Origin: Desulfobotulus alkaliphilus
GTDB taxonomy: Bacteria > Desulfobacterota > Desulfobacteria > Desulfobacterales > ASO4-4
Reading direction: 5' to 3'
Assembly (NCBI RefSeq): GCF_007830435.1
Contig: NZ_VLLC01000005.1
Location: 88,191 to 152,190 of the forward strand
DNA: 64,000 nt
Under the pieces are notes generated by a model, which saw only the letters and a program-made list of their open reading frames with translations, was not told the origin of the DNA and searched no databases. This document shows positions 57,436 through 64,000 of this stretch, in pieces. The position numbers were made by a program, and so were the translations under genes. Every line of letters begins with the position of its first letter. The first letter of the stretch is position 1.

Positions 57436-58386
57436 TTACTGCCAGAGCATACGCACCCTTCCAAGGCCGAACATGGTATTTTTTCCCACATGCAGGGCTT
57501 CGGCAAGGGACAGAAGGGGTAGAAAAGGAGTCAGATCTCCTTCATACAGGACATCACCGGTCAGCCCCCCCATGAACATCCTGCTTTCCTGACGGTTGGA
57601 GTAACGCTGCCAGTCAAACCAGCGAAGATTTTTTTCCCGTATCCGGATATTTCCTGCCATGCGTATCATTTCCGGATAATCCAGCTCCGGCTCACCATCG
57701 CCCCATGCATTAAAAAGGGATGACATGCGCCGCAGAGCCTGCCGCACAAAGAGATCAAAGGGAAGGTCTGCAGGCAGACGGCCATCCACCTTAAGCCTGA
57801 GGGGAGTATCCAGCACAATTCGCACGGCCTTTCCATGGGCAGGCCAGGTTTCAGGGAAGTCCCAGCAAAGCGCTTTCAGGTTTTCAGGCCTTGTCATGCT
57901 GTTGCCTCCATTCTCGTATACCGAAACTTCAGGAAAAAATGATTCTTCCACCCTTTCCAGCACAAAACGTCCACGCTGCCCCTGCAATCTCCTGCCAAGC
58001 CCTGCCTTTCCCATACGTTCAAAGGCATGGACAAAATAGGGGAGATAATCATTGGCAGAACCAAAAACCTTAAGTCCGCAGACAAGCCCGTCTCCGGGTT
58101 CATATCCCGTTTTTTCATCCTCAGGTGGAACAAATACCATGGGATGGGGAGGAGCAGAAACACGGCCCCCTTTTTCCCGGCCCACATCCGTTTCCGTTTC
58201 AAAAACCATGGCATAAACACAGCGGGAACTCAGGGAACAGTCACTGCATGTTTTGCAGTTTCTCAAAGCACATACAGCTGATTTTAAACTGTGACCAAAA
58301 CCGCCCCTGAAGGTGGAACCCTTAAAGGGTGGGAGTTCCGCTGGAGTCTGAAATTTGCAAAAAAATCTGTAAAATCCGTAGCGCAT
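57436..58386 (-). CDS. cas6: Stand-alone Cas6 (CRISPR precursor RNA endoribonuclease)
   Basis: 316 residues from ATG 58386 (a GTG at 58395 is an alternative; both have weak ribosome sites). A RAMP protein: YGFYRFFCKF, STFRGGFGHSLKSAVC, a Cys cluster C-x4-C-x2-C-x2-C-x5-C (CALRNCKTCSDC then C) before VYAMVFET, and a C-terminal glycine-rich loop GKNTMFGLGRVRM typical of Cas6. It would cut CRISPR precursor RNA. No array or other cas gene is visible. It is the last gene of the sigma / anti-sigma / Lon-like run, 82 bases after the Lon-like stop. Confidence 0.82.
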   Translation of the reverse strand: MRYGFYRFFCKFQTPAELPPFKGSTFRGGFGHSLKSAVCALRNCKTCSDCSLSSRCVYAMVFETETDVGREKGGRVSAPPHPMVFVPPEDEKTGYEPGDGLVCGLKVFGSANDYLPYFVHAFERMGKAGLGRRLQGQRGRFVLERVEESFFPEVSVYENGGNSMTRPENLKALCWDFPETWPAHGKAVRIVLDTPLRLKVDGRLPADLPFDLFVRQALRRMSSLFNAWGDGEPELDYPEMIRMAGNIRIREKNLRWFDWQRYSNRQESRMFMGGLTGDVLYEGDLTPFLPLLSLAEALHVGKNTMFGLGRVRMLWQ

Positions 58387-58468
58387 GTCTGCCACTTTCT
58401 TTTCTTTTGGTATTTATATTCCGAAGGTTTATCCATGCCCATCAGTTTGATTGCTACCCGTTTGATTA

Positions 58469-60511
58469 CTACCTGTACGAAAAAGGAAACCATTTTTTTC
58501 TCATTGCATTAAAACCGTGAAGCCAGTCAAGGTCTGCATTGTCAGGAATAGTAATTCCCCAGTCTTTTTCCGGAATGGAGCTTTGTACCATGGCCAGGCA
58601 GTTTGTGGCCCTTTGGGGATCGAGTCTTCCCATGGATGCCATTTCTGAAAGGGGCAGAAGGGCCATCATGCGTATGGTGGGGCCGCCCATCCTGTCCAGA
58701 CAGCACCGCAGACTTTCTTTCTGGGCAATGAGAGCAGCCTTTTCATCACCAAGAGACCGGGCCATGCGGCCCACATTATGCCAGATCAACTGCCATGGAT
58801 GACCCTTTTTTCCCAAAGCTTCTGGCCAGAGATTTTTAACAAGATACTCCTTCAGGGAAGAAGTCCCGGCTTCGGCACCAAATCTTGCAAACAATGCCCT
58901 TTCCCATGGGGTGTGCCTTTTTTTCAACATGAATTTTTCTGGGGAAATTCCTCCGGCAACCATAAGAAAGGCATCTTCTGCAGCGGCCTCATCTCCGGCA
59001 TCGCAGGCAGCATAAAAAAGATAGTGAAAGGCCCTGATCCAGCTTTCACGCATTTCCGTGTTTTCCCTTCCTCCAAAGGCCCATATGGATTTTTCTGCCC
59101 AGTACACTGAAACCTCATAATTCTGCTGGAAACCGAAATGCTGGGATAAGGTACCGCAGAGGGCACCCAGCCCTGTATCAGCAGCAAGCCCGGCTCTTTG
59201 TTTTCTGATGGAAAGTTTATGACAGCTTTTTTCAACCAAAGGCATGACCCAGTCCGGCAAGGGCTCATCAAAGCGGTAGCGGTCATGGAATTTGTGGATC
59301 AGGTCAAGACTGATACCGATTCTCCATATATTTCGGCAGGTATCATCCCATTCCACAGCCTGCTGATGGCAGAGCATTTTTTCAGCCATGGAAGCAGCCC
59401 TTTCAGGGTGTCCCCTGCGAAGCTCCAGAAAAAAACAGGCAAAGGCCCAGAGAAAATGTAAGTTTGTCTGATCCGGCATCCTGCTGAGCAGGGGAAGACA
59501 GGAATCCTTGAGCAAAAGGGCTTTTTCCAGCTCACCTTTCACAATGCTTTCATGGATCAGAATAAAGATTTTTTTCCATGCTCCATCTTCCTTAATATAA
59601 TCTTCCAGATGCTTTTGAAAACGTTCTTCCTGCACCATCCGGCGGAGTTTGAAAAAGGGAATTTTAATAAAATCATCAAGGCAGGCACGGGCATCTTTGC
59701 TCCATAATATCCCGGAAAAATCCATACCATCTTCAAAGGCTTCCATGCACAAAAGAGCATCTGAAATATTGTTTACCCCCAGACATACCGGATCGGATGA
59801 TGCCCAGTGCGGCTCACAGCATGCCTCAGGCAGAAGAAAAAAACGCATCCGGACATTTTCTGCCCAGTCTCTTTTTTCCCTCAAACCAGCAACGGGCAGT
59901 ATGTCACCATTTTCTCCCAGCCAGCCCGTAGCCCCCAGACCCACCGGATAATCTTTCTGGCGCTTCAGACTGCAAAAAGCCAGAAAAAAGGCCAGACCAG
60001 CGGAAGCCCCCTGCTGGGTCGCAGCACCTTCTGGCGTATCAACCGGCAGGATATGCACGCCCGCAGAAACTCCAGCCCATTCTGCTGCCCTCAGAATGCT
60101 TTCCCGAAAACTGTCATCCGCATCGTAGATAACCATATCCGCAAGCTCTTCATCGGCAAGAATCAGCCACCACCGGGGGGCACTATTCTGGAAAAACACA
60201 GGAAAGCAGAGACCTTCCACCCTGTCTTTAAGATGAAATGGAAAAGAAGCAGGGCAGATTTGCTTGCATAAGCCCATGATCCATGGGTCTTTCTGCATAA
60301 GCCCTTCCAGCAGAAGACGCCGGTGCAGCAGTATCCGGCAGGAAGGCCGCTTTTCTAAAGCCGCATCCAGCTTAAAAAACGCTTTTTCTGATTCCGGGTT
60401 TGAAAAATCAGGAAAGCGCTGGGAAGCATTCCTTAAAAAAGCACGGAAAACATCCGGCCCACCATGGGAATTCATAAGAAAATGGAGATATCGGATAAAA
60501 ACTGAAGACAT
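58469..60511 (-). CDS. Lon-type (S16) protease domain fused to helical repeats
   Basis: 680 residues. Residues about 150-235 align with the Lon proteolytic domain: EGAATQQGASAGLAFF has Ser170 at the nucleophile position, VGLGATGWLGENGDILPVAGL is the following strand-turn, and REKRDW comes where Lon has KEK. The position of the catalytic Lys is Arg211, with Lys213 two residues on, so activity is uncertain. No AAA+ domain and no SAVED signature are seen. Residues about 290-680 are helical and repeat-like (TPR-like). Start ATG 60511 without a strong Shine-Dalgarno. It lies between an anti-sigma candidate and cas6. Confidence 0.7.
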   Translation of the reverse strand: MSSVFIRYLHFLMNSHGGPDVFRAFLRNASQRFPDFSNPESEKAFFKLDAALEKRPSCRILLHRRLLLEGLMQKDPWIMGLCKQICPASFPFHLKDRVEGLCFPVFFQNSAPRWWLILADEELADMVIYDADDSFRESILRAAEWAGVSAGVHILPVDTPEGAATQQGASAGLAFFLAFCSLKRQKDYPVGLGATGWLGENGDILPVAGLREKRDWAENVRMRFFLLPEACCEPHWASSDPVCLGVNNISDALLCMEAFEDGMDFSGILWSKDARACLDDFIKIPFFKLRRMVQEERFQKHLEDYIKEDGAWKKIFILIHESIVKGELEKALLLKDSCLPLLSRMPDQTNLHFLWAFACFFLELRRGHPERAASMAEKMLCHQQAVEWDDTCRNIWRIGISLDLIHKFHDRYRFDEPLPDWVMPLVEKSCHKLSIRKQRAGLAADTGLGALCGTLSQHFGFQQNYEVSVYWAEKSIWAFGGRENTEMRESWIRAFHYLFYAACDAGDEAAAEDAFLMVAGGISPEKFMLKKRHTPWERALFARFGAEAGTSSLKEYLVKNLWPEALGKKGHPWQLIWHNVGRMARSLGDEKAALIAQKESLRCCLDRMGGPTIRMMALLPLSEMASMGRLDPQRATNCLAMVQSSIPEKDWGITIPDNADLDWLHGFNAMRKKWFPFSYR

Positions 60512-60534
60512 TAAAATCCATGATTGATTTTATT

Positions 60535-60560
60535 CAAAGCGACTGGAAGCCACTTCTACT
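60535..60560. repeat. REP-like palindrome
   Basis: AAAGCGACTGGAAGCCACTTCTACT is a near copy of the hairpin in 52752-52800. It lies in the 92-base gap between the anti-sigma candidate and the Lon-like gene, the only sizeable gap in the run besides that before cas6. Mentioned length is 25 bases in total; the arms are AAGCGACTGG and CCACTTCT. Confidence 0.5.
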
Positions 60561-60603
60561 TTTTCAGGCCTTCCCATCCTGCCAAAAGCCTACAGCCCTG
60601 CTT

Positions 60604-61695
60604 TCAGGAACCATTCACCACAAGTGCCAGCAGAGGGCTGCCACTGCGTACTTCGGCACGGAAGGCGGCCTGAAAAAACCATCCGTCCGTTTCAAGCCAT
60701 TCCCCATCGTAGATCTGCCCGTCCTTTGCCTGAATCATAACCATGCTGCCGCAGATACCCCGGATCATTTCAGGAAAAGCTCCTGAAATATTTCTCCAGC
60801 CCCTGTCATCCACATAATCCGACATAAGGGAGACGTTTAAGGTATCAATACGGTCCAGCGCTCCCCTTTTCAGATAAGCCACACGGATTGCAATGGTTTC
60901 TTCAGAAGCCGCTACCAGGGGCAGGCTGTCTTCAGGAGGAGATGCCATGAAAAATGCAAGGTTGATGTTATCTTTTGCCTCCACCCTGAATCCGGTTTTT
61001 TTCCTGAGGGTGTCACAAAACTCTGCACTTCCGCTAAATATCTGAAAAAGTGGCACACGGCTGCATGCCATGGCTGTTTTTAAAAAAAGACCATGCAGCT
61101 CTGTCCGTGGGTCATCTTCTTTGACAGAAAGAATACGCATACCCTGTTCAGGGTAAAAGATCGGATTTTTAATCATTTTTTTCAGATCTGAAAGTACGCT
61201 GCCTTCGGCCTTTCCCCAAGACGGCCCAAGATCAGAAGGTTTCAGGGCCATTTTGCCGCAAGGGACAAAAACGAGCGGCAGACCCAAGCTATCTTCGGAG
61301 ATGAAATCACCGGGAATGGCCGCATCGGGAAAAGGATGGCAAGGGATACAGGTGATGTAGTCCCCTGTCGTTTCCAGCACCAGCACCTCTGGCGGATTTC
61401 TGTAGCCATCCTCCCACCAGCCGCCCCTGCCCGGAGAAACACTTCTTAGCTGACCGGGCAAAACACTGTCTTCCGCCCCCTGATCTCCATGACTCTCCAA
61501 AGCCTCTTTCAGGGAAAAAAGGGCTGCCTCTGTCTCTTCATCACCATGGCAAAGATTACATCGGCTGCGGTGTTCTTTCACCTTTTCATCATCTGTAGAA
61601 TTTAGCAGATGAAGGAGCGGCGGGCATACAAGGCCTGAGGCAAATTCCCTGAGTGCATCAGGGATATCCTGAAAGAACCCTGAATTCTTATTCAT
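60604..61695 (-). CDS. Zinc anti-sigma-like protein with MazF-like segment (CalpT-like)
   Basis: 363 residues without membrane helices. Near the N-terminus H42-x3-C46-x2-C49 (EHRSRCNLC) is the ZAS zinc anti-sigma motif; Cys24 may be the fourth ligand. Residues about 91-176 (PPEVLVLETTGDYITCIP, then AIPGDFISED and LGLPLVFVP) have the strand order of MazF/PemK-like domains. The remaining about 185 residues are unassigned. ATG 61695 overlaps the sigma gene by 8 bases (GGAGG upstream), so the pair is coupled. In CalpT a ZAS-like and a MazF-like part are joined; here the resemblance is from pattern reading, not a search. Confidence 0.6.
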   Translation of the reverse strand: MNKNSGFFQDIPDALREFASGLVCPPLLHLLNSTDDEKVKEHRSRCNLCHGDEETEAALFSLKEALESHGDQGAEDSVLPGQLRSVSPGRGGWWEDGYRNPPEVLVLETTGDYITCIPCHPFPDAAIPGDFISEDSLGLPLVFVPCGKMALKPSDLGPSWGKAEGSVLSDLKKMIKNPIFYPEQGMRILSVKEDDPRTELHGLFLKTAMACSRVPLFQIFSGSAEFCDTLRKKTGFRVEAKDNINLAFFMASPPEDSLPLVAASEETIAIRVAYLKRGALDRIDTLNVSLMSDYVDDRGWRNISGAFPEMIRGICGSMVMIQAKDGQIYDGEWLETDGWFFQAAFRAEVRSGSPLLALVVNGS

Positions 61696-62698
61696 GGAAA
61701 TCCTCCTCTTTCGGCCTGCTTTTCATATCCGCAAGCAGAAGTGCCATTTCCTTTTTACTGAAATGCTCCTTTAAAATCCTGAAACACTTTTTTTTAAGCT
61801 GTGTGAGGGCGGGTTCACTGCATCCGATCTGCCGGGCAATGTCACCCTGACTTTTGCCTTCATTCAGTCCATCCAGAAGTTGAAGGCCTTCAGGGGGCAG
61901 GAGCTTTTTCACGGCTTCCCGGAAAAAAGGAAGGGACTGCAGGCTGTTTTTTGCATCCAGCAGATATTCCATATCCGGAAACGCACCGGTGGCTTCCTCC
62001 ACTTTTCGGTGTTTTACCTCATCATCTTCATCTAAAGAAATTCCTGTTTTTTTGTCATACACGGTTTTCAGATGGCTTTTTTCCCTGAGCCATAAAAGAA
62101 GACTTTCTTTTTCAATGGAAAAATCCACCCTGTTTTCTTCCGCAGCGATAAGATCCCAGAAATAAAGGGCCGCAGATACCTGATAATTCCGCTTTCCCCA
62201 TTCCCGTCCAGAAATATCCGCAAGGTTTGCTGGAAGATGTTTATCCTGTATGAAAAAATAAGGCAGATGCAAAGGGGCATAATCAGGGGGGGTATTGCGA
62301 TAGCATGGGGTCTTCCGTTTCCCCTGCCCCCAGGCAAAGGAATGAATTTCAGGCGGGCTTAAATTCTCAAACAGTTTTTTACGAAAATATGCCGAAGGAT
62401 TGACATCCAAAGAACGCTCTCTGTCCTGCATCCGGTTCTGGAATACTTTCTTAAACCATGGCAGGGGATGGGGCATCTGCAATGCAGCACCATAGCGGGA
62501 AGGGGCTTCAAGAACTTCTGCCACAAGGATACTCAGCATTTCGTCAATATCCTGAACAAAGGGATCATCAAACCTGCTGCCCCATTTCCTGCTGTCTTTC
62601 AAAAGAAAGCCAGCCAGTTTTTTTAAAACACTGTCCTTTTTTTCCAGATCCTGCCGGACCCAGAGATGAAGCCCGTTTTTATCTGTTTTGCTTTCCAT
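61688..62698 (-). CDS. Atypical large sigma-70/ECF-like factor (CalpS-like)
   Basis: 336 residues. C-terminal residues 266-312 (PPEGLQLLDGLNEGKSQGD, then ARQIGCSEPALTQLKKKCF) read as sigma region 4 with its HTH. The stretch from about 15 to 95 (DIDEMLSILVAEVLEA ... LPWFKKVFQNRMQDRER) is compatible with region 2. The roughly 170 residues between are longer than in ECF factors and have no assignment. Start ATG 62698 with GAGGTG about 7 bases upstream. It is the first gene of the run; its stop lies inside the start region of the anti-sigma-like gene. Confidence 0.65.
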   Translation of the reverse strand: MESKTDKNGLHLWVRQDLEKKDSVLKKLAGFLLKDSRKWGSRFDDPFVQDIDEMLSILVAEVLEAPSRYGAALQMPHPLPWFKKVFQNRMQDRERSLDVNPSAYFRKKLFENLSPPEIHSFAWGQGKRKTPCYRNTPPDYAPLHLPYFFIQDKHLPANLADISGREWGKRNYQVSAALYFWDLIAAEENRVDFSIEKESLLLWLREKSHLKTVYDKKTGISLDEDDEVKHRKVEEATGAFPDMEYLLDAKNSLQSLPFFREAVKKLLPPEGLQLLDGLNEGKSQGDIARQIGCSEPALTQLKKKCFRILKEHFSKKEMALLLADMKSRPKEEDFHE

Positions 62699-63003: not shown

Positions 63004-63602
63004 TTACCAGTGATAACCAAGCAGAAGCCCAAAGTGGCCGCCTCCGGCATCAATATCTTCATTTCCAACGGTCACTTTACCGGAAGACCCCCCAAGTTCA
63101 AAACCGATGTTAAAAGAACTTCCCAGAGTCCAGTAAACACCACCACTGAGCCAGATTCCGTAACCAGTATCATCTTCACTATGCTTCATTCCATTGGATG
63201 CCTCTGCCTCTAATTCAGCCCGAAAAAGTGCAACTCCCCCGCCAATAAAAGGACGAACATGGCTGCCCGGCTCCCAGATTTTTTTCACTCCCATACGCAG
63301 TTCCTGGGTATAAGCTTTCACTTTATACAGCTTAAAACCAGAGTAACGATTATAATCATAAAGATAGCCATCATTGTAGGAAGACAAAATTCCAATGGCA
63401 ATGCTCACAGGCCAGTCCGTTTTTTTGAAATCCACATTGATCCCCAAAGCCCATGTTCATCAAGGGGTCTCCAGTCATCTTCATCCAGAACCTTTGAACC
63501 TAAGGTGAAGTTCAGATTTCCTGTCCACGGAGAGGCCACAGAAGGAGAAACTGTACTAAAAAACAAAAGGGTTATTAAGAGGGGAAACAAATTTTTTTTC
63601 AC
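63004..63602 (-). pseudogene. Outer-membrane beta-barrel protein split by a frameshift
   Basis: The first part (63602 to about 63450) has a signal peptide ending SPSVAS and begins a barrel (WTGNLNFTLGSKVLDEDDWRPLDEHG). The second part in another frame (to 63004) continues naturally as G-I-N-V-D-F-K-K-T-D-W with alternating strands, glycine-rich turns (RPFIGGGVALF) and a terminal aromatic residue (LLLGYHW). One missing G in the GGG at 63450-63452 explains the break. Whole length would be about 199 residues. It may be a real frameshift, a phase-variable site or a sequencing error. Confidence 0.7.
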
Positions 63603-63611
63603 AACGACTCC

Positions 63612-63977
63612 TTATTTTTTTCTTGGTTCAAGTTCAACTTCATAAACGTATCTGTCATACTTCCACATACTCCCAGTCACCGCATCAACGATAAAACCCG
63701 GCCAAATGAAAATATTGAGAATACCGACAGCATCAAAGGAATTTTGAAGAAATACATGTCTCGATTCATACTCTTCCAGCTTGTACTGCACCTGAGGTGG
63801 AGTAGATCGTTTTTTTACAGGAACAGTAACGGGCGTTCTTCCATAACCCATACCGTCAATTTCTACCACAGCTCCTTCCGGGACAGATTTAAATGTGATT
63901 GTATCCGTTGAACCACTAAACATGGTTGCACAACCGGGAAAGACTCCCAGAACCATCAGACAGAATAACCAGCGCAT
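63612..63977 (-). CDS. PEGA-domain lipoprotein
   Basis: 121 residues from ATG 63977; AAGGAGG lies 9 bases upstream, inside the longer open frame from 63998, which settles the start. Lipoprotein signal with lipobox GVFPGC (Cys16). The centre, ITFKSVPEGAVVEIDGMGYGRTPVTVPV, is the PEGA-like beta domain. A hydrophobic stretch follows. It is 10 bases upstream of the beta-barrel gene and probably co-transcribed with it. The window ends just beyond it. Confidence 0.8.
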   Translation of the reverse strand: MRWLFCLMVLGVFPGCATMFSGSTDTITFKSVPEGAVVEIDGMGYGRTPVTVPVKKRSTPPQVQYKLEEYESRHVFLQNSFDAVGILNIFIWPGFIVDAVTGSMWKYDRYVYEVELEPRKK

Positions 63978-64000
63978 TCGGCACAACCTCCTTTTCATCA

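Follow-up and report, generated by a model that had tools for sequence, protein, structure and literature searches.

We analyzed a 64,000-nucleotide stretch of Desulfobotulus alkaliphilus DNA (RefSeq assembly GCF_007830435.1, contig NZ_VLLC01000005.1, positions 88,191 to 152,190 of the forward strand), hereafter called the window, and characterized four open reading frames (ORFs) at its positions 57436-62698. The first three of them encode a sigma factor, a putative zinc anti-sigma factor and a Lon-type protease with an arm of tetratricopeptide repeats (TPRs), here called Lon-TPR, and together form a conserved module that is probably a proteolytic sigma switch linked to type III CRISPR systems. 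Two CRISPR pathways ending in a protease-released sigma factor are known, Calp and Craspase/CASP, each with few described members, and we conclude that this module represents a third CRISPR-linked protease-to-sigma pathway beside them. An earlier note on this DNA had described four minus-strand genes in the order sigma-like, HxxxCxxC protein, Lon-like and Cas6, with an 8-base overlap between the first two. All of the ORFs were present in the order it gave, and the sigma and anti-sigma genes do share 8 bases, as listed below.

61688..62698, minus strand: gene for a sigma-70/extracytoplasmic function (ECF)-type sigma factor of 336 amino acids (aa), with a degenerate region 2 and a C-terminal region-4-like helix-turn-helix
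60604..61695, minus strand: gene for a putative zinc anti-sigma factor of 363 aa, with a zinc-binding anti-sigma (ZAS)-type finger, a MazF-like barrel, a linker and a C-terminal beta domain
58469..60511, minus strand: gene for the Lon-TPR protease, 680 aa (Pfam Lon_C match and AlphaFold2 (AF2) model, see below)
57436..58395, minus strand: gene for the CRISPR RNA (crRNA)-processing endoribonuclease Cas6, 319 aa (PF10040 and PADLOC matches, see below)

Protein searches retrieved five distant relatives of Lon-TPR with 25-33% identity, and canonical Lon proteins aligned with it over ~75 residues of the protease domain only. A scan of genome contigs with the single protein gave no relatives; they were found by a profile scan, in which relatives were called with a six-sequence profile at E 1e-25. 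Within the order, 24 of 389 genomes carried a Lon-TPR relative, in 18 of 150 genera; a draw of 395 genomes from the whole phylum gave 22 carriers, in 19 of 246 genera. The two draws had five genomes in common, and the named carrier records were Desulfobacteraceae, Desulfobacterales, Desulfobulbaceae and other deltaproteobacterial metagenome-assembled genomes. An anti-sigma family member lay directly upstream of Lon-TPR on the same strand in 42 of 45 loci, and the full order of sigma, anti-sigma and Lon-TPR was contiguous in 33 of the 45 as judged by profile alone. Among the remaining 12 loci, L106, L107, L108 and L118 carry a divergent sigma-like gene (TIGR02937 matched the three of these genes that were scanned), L112 has a type III-E-like sigma instead, and most of the others are cut by contig ends. 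The earlier note held that a gene order unique to this genome, or a lack of any S16 (Lon) protease, ZAS or sigma signal, would speak against its proposal. The order recurs in dozens of genomes, and all three signals were found, as described in the following paragraphs.

The Lon-like protein had been read in the earlier note as carrying an S16 protease domain and, in place of a SAVED sensor, helical repeats; structure prediction bore out the former as a confident Lon fold and identified the latter as a TPR arm. The features of the protein are as follows.

59729..60223, minus strand: S16 protease domain, residues 97-261 (VIA-align)
60002..60004, minus strand: codon of the catalytic Ser170, Ser in 43 of 43 relatives
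59873..59875, minus strand: codon of the catalytic Lys213, Lys in 43 of 43 relatives
58472..59623, minus strand: TPR arm, residues 297-680, recognized by fold matches and ending in the conserved C-terminal FPFxYR

Pfam Lon_C matched the protein above the curated cut-off (E 6.8e-8). In the AF2 model, which was built from 12 sequences and had a mean predicted local distance difference test score (pLDDT) of 82.9 and a predicted TM-score of 0.59, residues 97-261 superposed on Lon protease domains with Z scores of 19-20 (19.6 being the value cited for the S16 fold) and a root-mean-square deviation (rmsd) of ~2.1-2.5 over 153-163 residues. The TPR arm matched domain III of MalT best (Z 20.3, rmsd 4.8, 314 residues), followed by NprR (Z 18.6) and Rap (Z 18); note that helical repeats often give high Z scores. 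S170, L173 and K213 were the only invariant columns among 43 aligned Lon-TPR proteins, indicating that protease activity is under selection. The Ser-Lys spacing was 42-46 residues, and it was 43 in most of the proteins, in the window protein and, as counted on the alignment, in human Lon. The C-terminal FPFxYR was likewise kept across the family. Pfam, profile and fold comparison revealed neither a CARF nor a SAVED domain hidden in Lon-TPR, and the profile match to CalpL was confined to the Lon domain (E 1.3e-4).

In the putative anti-sigma factor, the following parts were distinguished.

61549..61626, minus strand: ZAS zinc ligands C24...H42-x3-C46-x2-C49 (conservation in 31 sequences)
61153..61479, minus strand: MazF-like barrel, residues 73-181 (Foldseek and VIA-align)
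60904..61062, minus strand: low-confidence linker by AF2 pLDDT, residues 212-264, a candidate cleavage region
60607..60903, minus strand: C-terminal beta domain, residues 265-363, a candidate Lon-TPR recognition domain by domain sharing

The pattern C...H-x3-C-x2-C is the ligand pattern of RsrA-type ZAS anti-sigma factors. C24, H42 and C46 were present in 31 of 31 aligned sequences and C49 in 30, the single exception being one alignment gap, so that the HxxxCxxC motif, which the earlier note had pointed out, is not a chance occurrence; P25 was likewise invariant. The Pfam scan recognized neither the finger nor the MazF-like domain in the main anti-sigma family, both being revealed by conservation and fold comparison, and Pfam zf-HC2 matched divergent members alone, L118 among them (8e-6). 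The barrel matched MazF with a Foldseek E value of 5e-4, and VIA-align superposed it on E. coli MazF with Z 10.2 and an rmsd of 2.6 over 97 residues. When the alignment was read by eye, the Arg-Pro signature of MazF was replaced by Asn-Pro-Pro and the loop residues were variable, and the MazF catalytic signature appears to have been lost from the barrel. In the linker, the AF2 pLDDT was mostly below 50 at residues 214-241 and 251-264.

The sigma-factor assignment of the earlier note was borne out at the level of the family. Specifically, TIGR02937, which represents the ECF sigma superfamily, matched 20 of the 28 aligned relatives (best 8e-9), and a profile of four relatives gave SigF (0.0013) and FliA (0.013) as top matches in the PDB. 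A weak match of the window sigma to NF041236 (E 0.0059) prompted us to consider type III-E membership, which was rejected: NF041236 matched only one of the 28 sigma relatives, and no component of the trio matched real type III-E loci. Inspection for a common sigma promoter motif was by eye only and gave nothing usable. In 23 relative loci, a conserved protein of ~155 aa with a CPCSS/CPCTS motif is encoded directly upstream of the sigma gene (for example L095:5698-6168, L102:12579-13058 and L124:6303-6779), a position that it does not occupy in the window locus. Its family search gave no informative match (DUF7441 at E 0.004 in one member), and it is possibly a fourth component of the module.

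The CRISPR connection, at which the presence of Cas6 had hinted in the earlier note, proved to be strong. The operon Cas6 was recognized by both Pfam (PF10040, 9e-16) and PADLOC (3e-100) and is the only PF10040 match in the source genome; in many relatives, which belong to many families, a Cas6 gene also follows Lon-TPR. The source genome has two type III loci, one on contig C41 (Cas10 and Csm2-5 with CARF-adenosine deaminase (CARF-ADA) and NUDIX genes) and one on contig C55 (Cas1, Cas2, Cmr1, Cas10 and Cmr3-6), the gene names being assigned by family resemblance. One CRISPR repeat is common to contigs C6, C24, C41 and C55, lying at contig ends in C6, C41 and C55; in C6, this terminal array starts ~13 kb from the operon. 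In the intact chromosome, the operon therefore probably lies next to a type III locus. In at least 24 of the 45 loci, the module has Cas6, Cas10/Csm, Cas1-primpol-TPR clusters, CARF-ADA genes or arrays as neighbours. When a strong Cas10 match was defined as E < 1e-10, Cas10 was present in 17 of the 24 Lon-TPR genomes of the order versus 59 of 365 others (Fisher p = 2e-8, a value that overstates independence since the genomes are related), and in 13 of 17 further Lon-TPR-positive genomes of the phylum.

Other genes recur around the module. A cluster of a TPR protein (~440-480 aa), a primpol-like protein and Cas1 lies beside it in L025, L101, L102, L111, L117 and L124, and a relative of this TPR protein is encoded near the end of contig C6 in the source genome (L024:17961-19280). 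CARF-adenosine-deaminase-like and NUDIX-like genes are adjacent to each other at L035:3804-6627, L025:4252-6961 and L120:13711-16529. On C6 past the window end, between the operon and the CRISPR array, L024:8491-17829 encodes a 1133-aa protein, for which no Pfam match was found, and a 1973-aa helicase-like protein; the two are possibly another defence system.

Variants of the module give insights into what its parts may do. In L106-L108, the anti-sigma factor differs in its N-terminal part, which includes a separate zinc finger and lacks the MazF-like part, and it retains the last ~140 residues of the family. In L112 (genome G502), Lon-TPR and a reverse transcriptase-Cas1 fusion are preceded by genes for Csx31 (match 1.7e-41), for a protein resembling CASP-sigma (6e-19 over its region 2) and for a protein of 674 aa. 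The first ~380 residues of the 674-aa protein are Csx30 (NF041234, E 6.5e-46, profile positions 72-352 of 560), and its last ~150 residues are the C-terminal domain of the window anti-sigma family (E 4e-17). This C-terminal domain is the sole part common to the window anti-sigma, the L106-L108 variants and the L112 chimera. Cas10 was present in G502, and Cas7-11e was not found there. In type III-E systems, the N-terminal domain of Csx30 binds the sigma factor, and its C-terminal domain is bound and cut by the protease Csx29 (PMC10028731). The L112 swap thus reads as an unchanged output with a different protease, the protease-facing domain having been exchanged along with the protease. Taken with the Csx30 domain roles, the chimera is the strongest evidence we have for an action of Lon-TPR on the sigma inhibitor, and points to Lon-TPR cutting it. 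The reverse transcriptase-Cas1 fusion adjoining the chimeric locus is 813 aa long (L112:7897-10338).

The TPR arm is also exchanged. It is fused to a DUF3800-like N-terminus at L106:5981-8122, L118:13711-15891, L146:169-2376 and L152:5494-7686, the last of which adjoins Cas6 and Cmr1. In G555 and G660 (L126 and L127), the sigma factor, the anti-sigma and the Lon half are kept, a C-terminal half with no relation to the TPR arm takes the place of the arm, and strong Cas10 matches were not found; these loci are perhaps the same switch with another trigger. Taken together, the anti-sigma variants, L112, the DUF3800 fusions and the G555/G660 loci suggest, in limited numbers, that the TPR arm is a CRISPR-facing sensor.

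The module was then set against known systems. Like Calp (CalpL/CalpT/CalpS of type III-B, Sulfurihydrogenibium), it unites a Lon-family protease, a sigma factor and an anti-sigma factor and is type III-linked. The Lon domain has the intact Ser-Lys dyad (43/43), an ECF-type sigma is encoded in the operon (20/28 family members, the window protein alone being weak), and the anti-sigma has the MazF-like domain (Z 10.2, 97 residues). In 2023 CalpT was reportedly described by Rouillon as a MazF homologue, and the barrel is a lead that the anti-sigma may be closer to Calp than the earlier note supposed. On the other hand, CalpL has a C-terminal SAVED domain where the window protease has the TPR arm, the window anti-sigma has a zinc finger and an extra C-terminal domain, the window sigma is much larger, and Cas6 lies within the operon. 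A 2025 classification listed Lon-family proteases among effectors activated by cyclic oligoadenylate (cOA), and a 2024 survey counted 17 CalpL loci among 1113 type III loci.

Type III-E CASP/Craspase systems (Cas7-11, TPR-CHAT Csx29, Csx30, Csx31 and CASP-sigma) likewise have a TPR-bearing protease, a sigma inhibitor and a sigma factor near CRISPR genes, and L112 combines Csx30, Csx31 and CASP-sigma with Lon-TPR. The protease is, however, of the CHAT type there and of the Lon type here. Cas7-11e (NF041225) gave no match in the source genome nor in 39 of the 41 carrier genomes, CASP-sigma (NF041236) gave none in the source genome at E 1e-10, and the TPR arm showed no profile similarity to Csx29 (E >= 0.13). 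No sequence similarity to the type III-E set was detected for any component of the window trio, and CASP-sigma, Csx30 and Csx31 occurred only in the L112 chimera. Cas12a2 loci are known to encode TPR-DUF3800 proteins, and VI-F and V-A2 loci to encode DUF3800 nucleases (PMC10910872, PMC12669027). The TPR-DUF3800 proteins have in common with L106, L118, L146 and L152 a CRISPR-linked combination of TPR and DUF3800, whereas their partner is a class 2 effector, with no Lon or sigma. Classical ZAS/ECF pairs of the RsrA-SigR type have the same C...H-x3-C-x2-C motif in a gene directly downstream of an ECF-like sigma, but here large MazF-like and C-terminal domains are added and the operon supplies a protease partner. 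The module works like Calp and CASP and is a member of neither, since SAVED, Cas7-11, CHAT, Csx30 and CASP-sigma were looked for and not found in it. The earlier note called the system undescribed, and no description of the Lon-TPR/sigma trio was found in searchable papers; supplements, subscription papers and preprints lie outside that coverage, and the trio may already have been listed as a cluster without a name.

In the cascade that we propose, the zinc anti-sigma would hold the sigma factor at rest through its N-terminal zinc domain. Once a type III (Cas10) complex, armed with crRNAs that the operon Cas6 would make, recognizes foreign RNA, Lon-TPR would be switched on via its TPR arm. It would then cut the anti-sigma within the C-terminal domain or close to it, which would set the sigma factor free. 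The notion of Calp-like logic with another sensor, put forward in the earlier note, agrees with the architecture and logic found here; the proteolysis, the sigma release and the trigger are what we infer. Several points weigh against the proposed cascade. The window sigma alone matched TIGR02937 at E 1.9e-4, under the family cut-off, and the AF2 model of the anti-sigma was of modest confidence (pLDDT 65). The Csx30 chimera is known from a single locus in one genome, and the case for the TPR arm as sensor is made by domain swaps and a two-genome correlation. In addition, 7 of the 24 positive genomes of the order had no strong Cas10 match, several of them being fragmented assemblies.

Regarding the trigger, the cascade may be set off by cOA or SAM-AMP (the S-adenosylmethionine-AMP conjugate) produced by Cas10, with the TPR arm as a new nucleotide sensor and the whole as Calp with another sensor domain, although we regard this as falling somewhat short of probable. 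The Cas10 proteins encoded beside several modules, and those of the two type III loci in the source genome, retain the GGDD cyclase motif, which permits, and does not require, a nucleotide trigger. cOA-type effectors (CARF-ADA, Csx1-like) occur nearby, the arm is similar to the TPRs by which MalT, Rap and NprR bind ligands, and the MazF-like anti-sigma would agree with the reported description of CalpT. The lack of a detectable CARF or SAVED domain in Lon-TPR argues against such a trigger, and we know of no TPR-type cOA sensor.

Alternatively, and more tentatively, the TPR arm in the same cascade might dock on a type III complex that has bound its target, in the way that TPR-CHAT docks on Cas7-11, making Lon-TPR an RNA-guided protease of a multi-subunit Cas10 complex. 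TPRs are protein-docking modules, TPR-CHAT provides the precedent (PMC10028731), TPR-DUF3800 proteins are linked to Cas12a2 and type VI-F loci without Cas10 (PMC10910872, PMC12669027), and Lon-TPR in L112 stands in the position of the type III-E TPR-CHAT. However, the arm lacks sequence similarity to Csx29, and the Cas10s here keep the cyclase motif. The fuller version, in which docking on the target-bound Cas10 complex is combined with a plug-in arm fused to Lon or DUF3800 and with protease-specific C-terminal domains swapped between sigma inhibitors, strikes us as rather doubtful when taken as a whole.

It is unlikely that the trio is a stress-response sigma/anti-sigma/protease operon merely located in defence islands and answering to an unrelated trigger. 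Strong Cas10 matches were absent from 11 of the 41 positive genomes, including two f88 genomes, and the sigma factor could control non-defence genes, but the Cas10 enrichment (p = 2e-8), the co-location of Cas6 in the operon in many families, with the operon Cas6 as the only one of its genome, and the chimera with type III-E components argue otherwise. Slightly less likely still is that Lon-TPR frees a MazF-like ribonuclease instead of, or besides, the sigma factor, as the MazF fold of the anti-sigma middle domain might suggest, given the Asn-Pro-Pro replacement and variable loop noted by eye and the L106-L108 loci, which lack the MazF domain yet keep the sigma, the finger and the protease.

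If the type III-linked proteolytic sigma switch is real, it would be a third protease-to-sigma CRISPR pathway, spread across many genera of one phylum, in which the protease, the sensor arm, the sigma inhibitor and the sigma factor can each be exchanged as modules. The chimeric L112 locus would offer a direct handle on the matching of protease to substrate. Should the TPR arm sense the type III complex itself, Lon-TPR would be a protease that is activated by RNA, works independently of ATP and acts on a multi-subunit complex; should the arm sense a nucleotide, it would represent a new fold for the recognition of CRISPR second messengers. The targets of CRISPR-released sigma factors would also become testable in more organisms.

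A plasmid search gave no match. Window positions 63004-63998, upstream of the sigma gene, hold genes for an opacity-type porin and a PEGA-domain protein, likewise on the minus strand.

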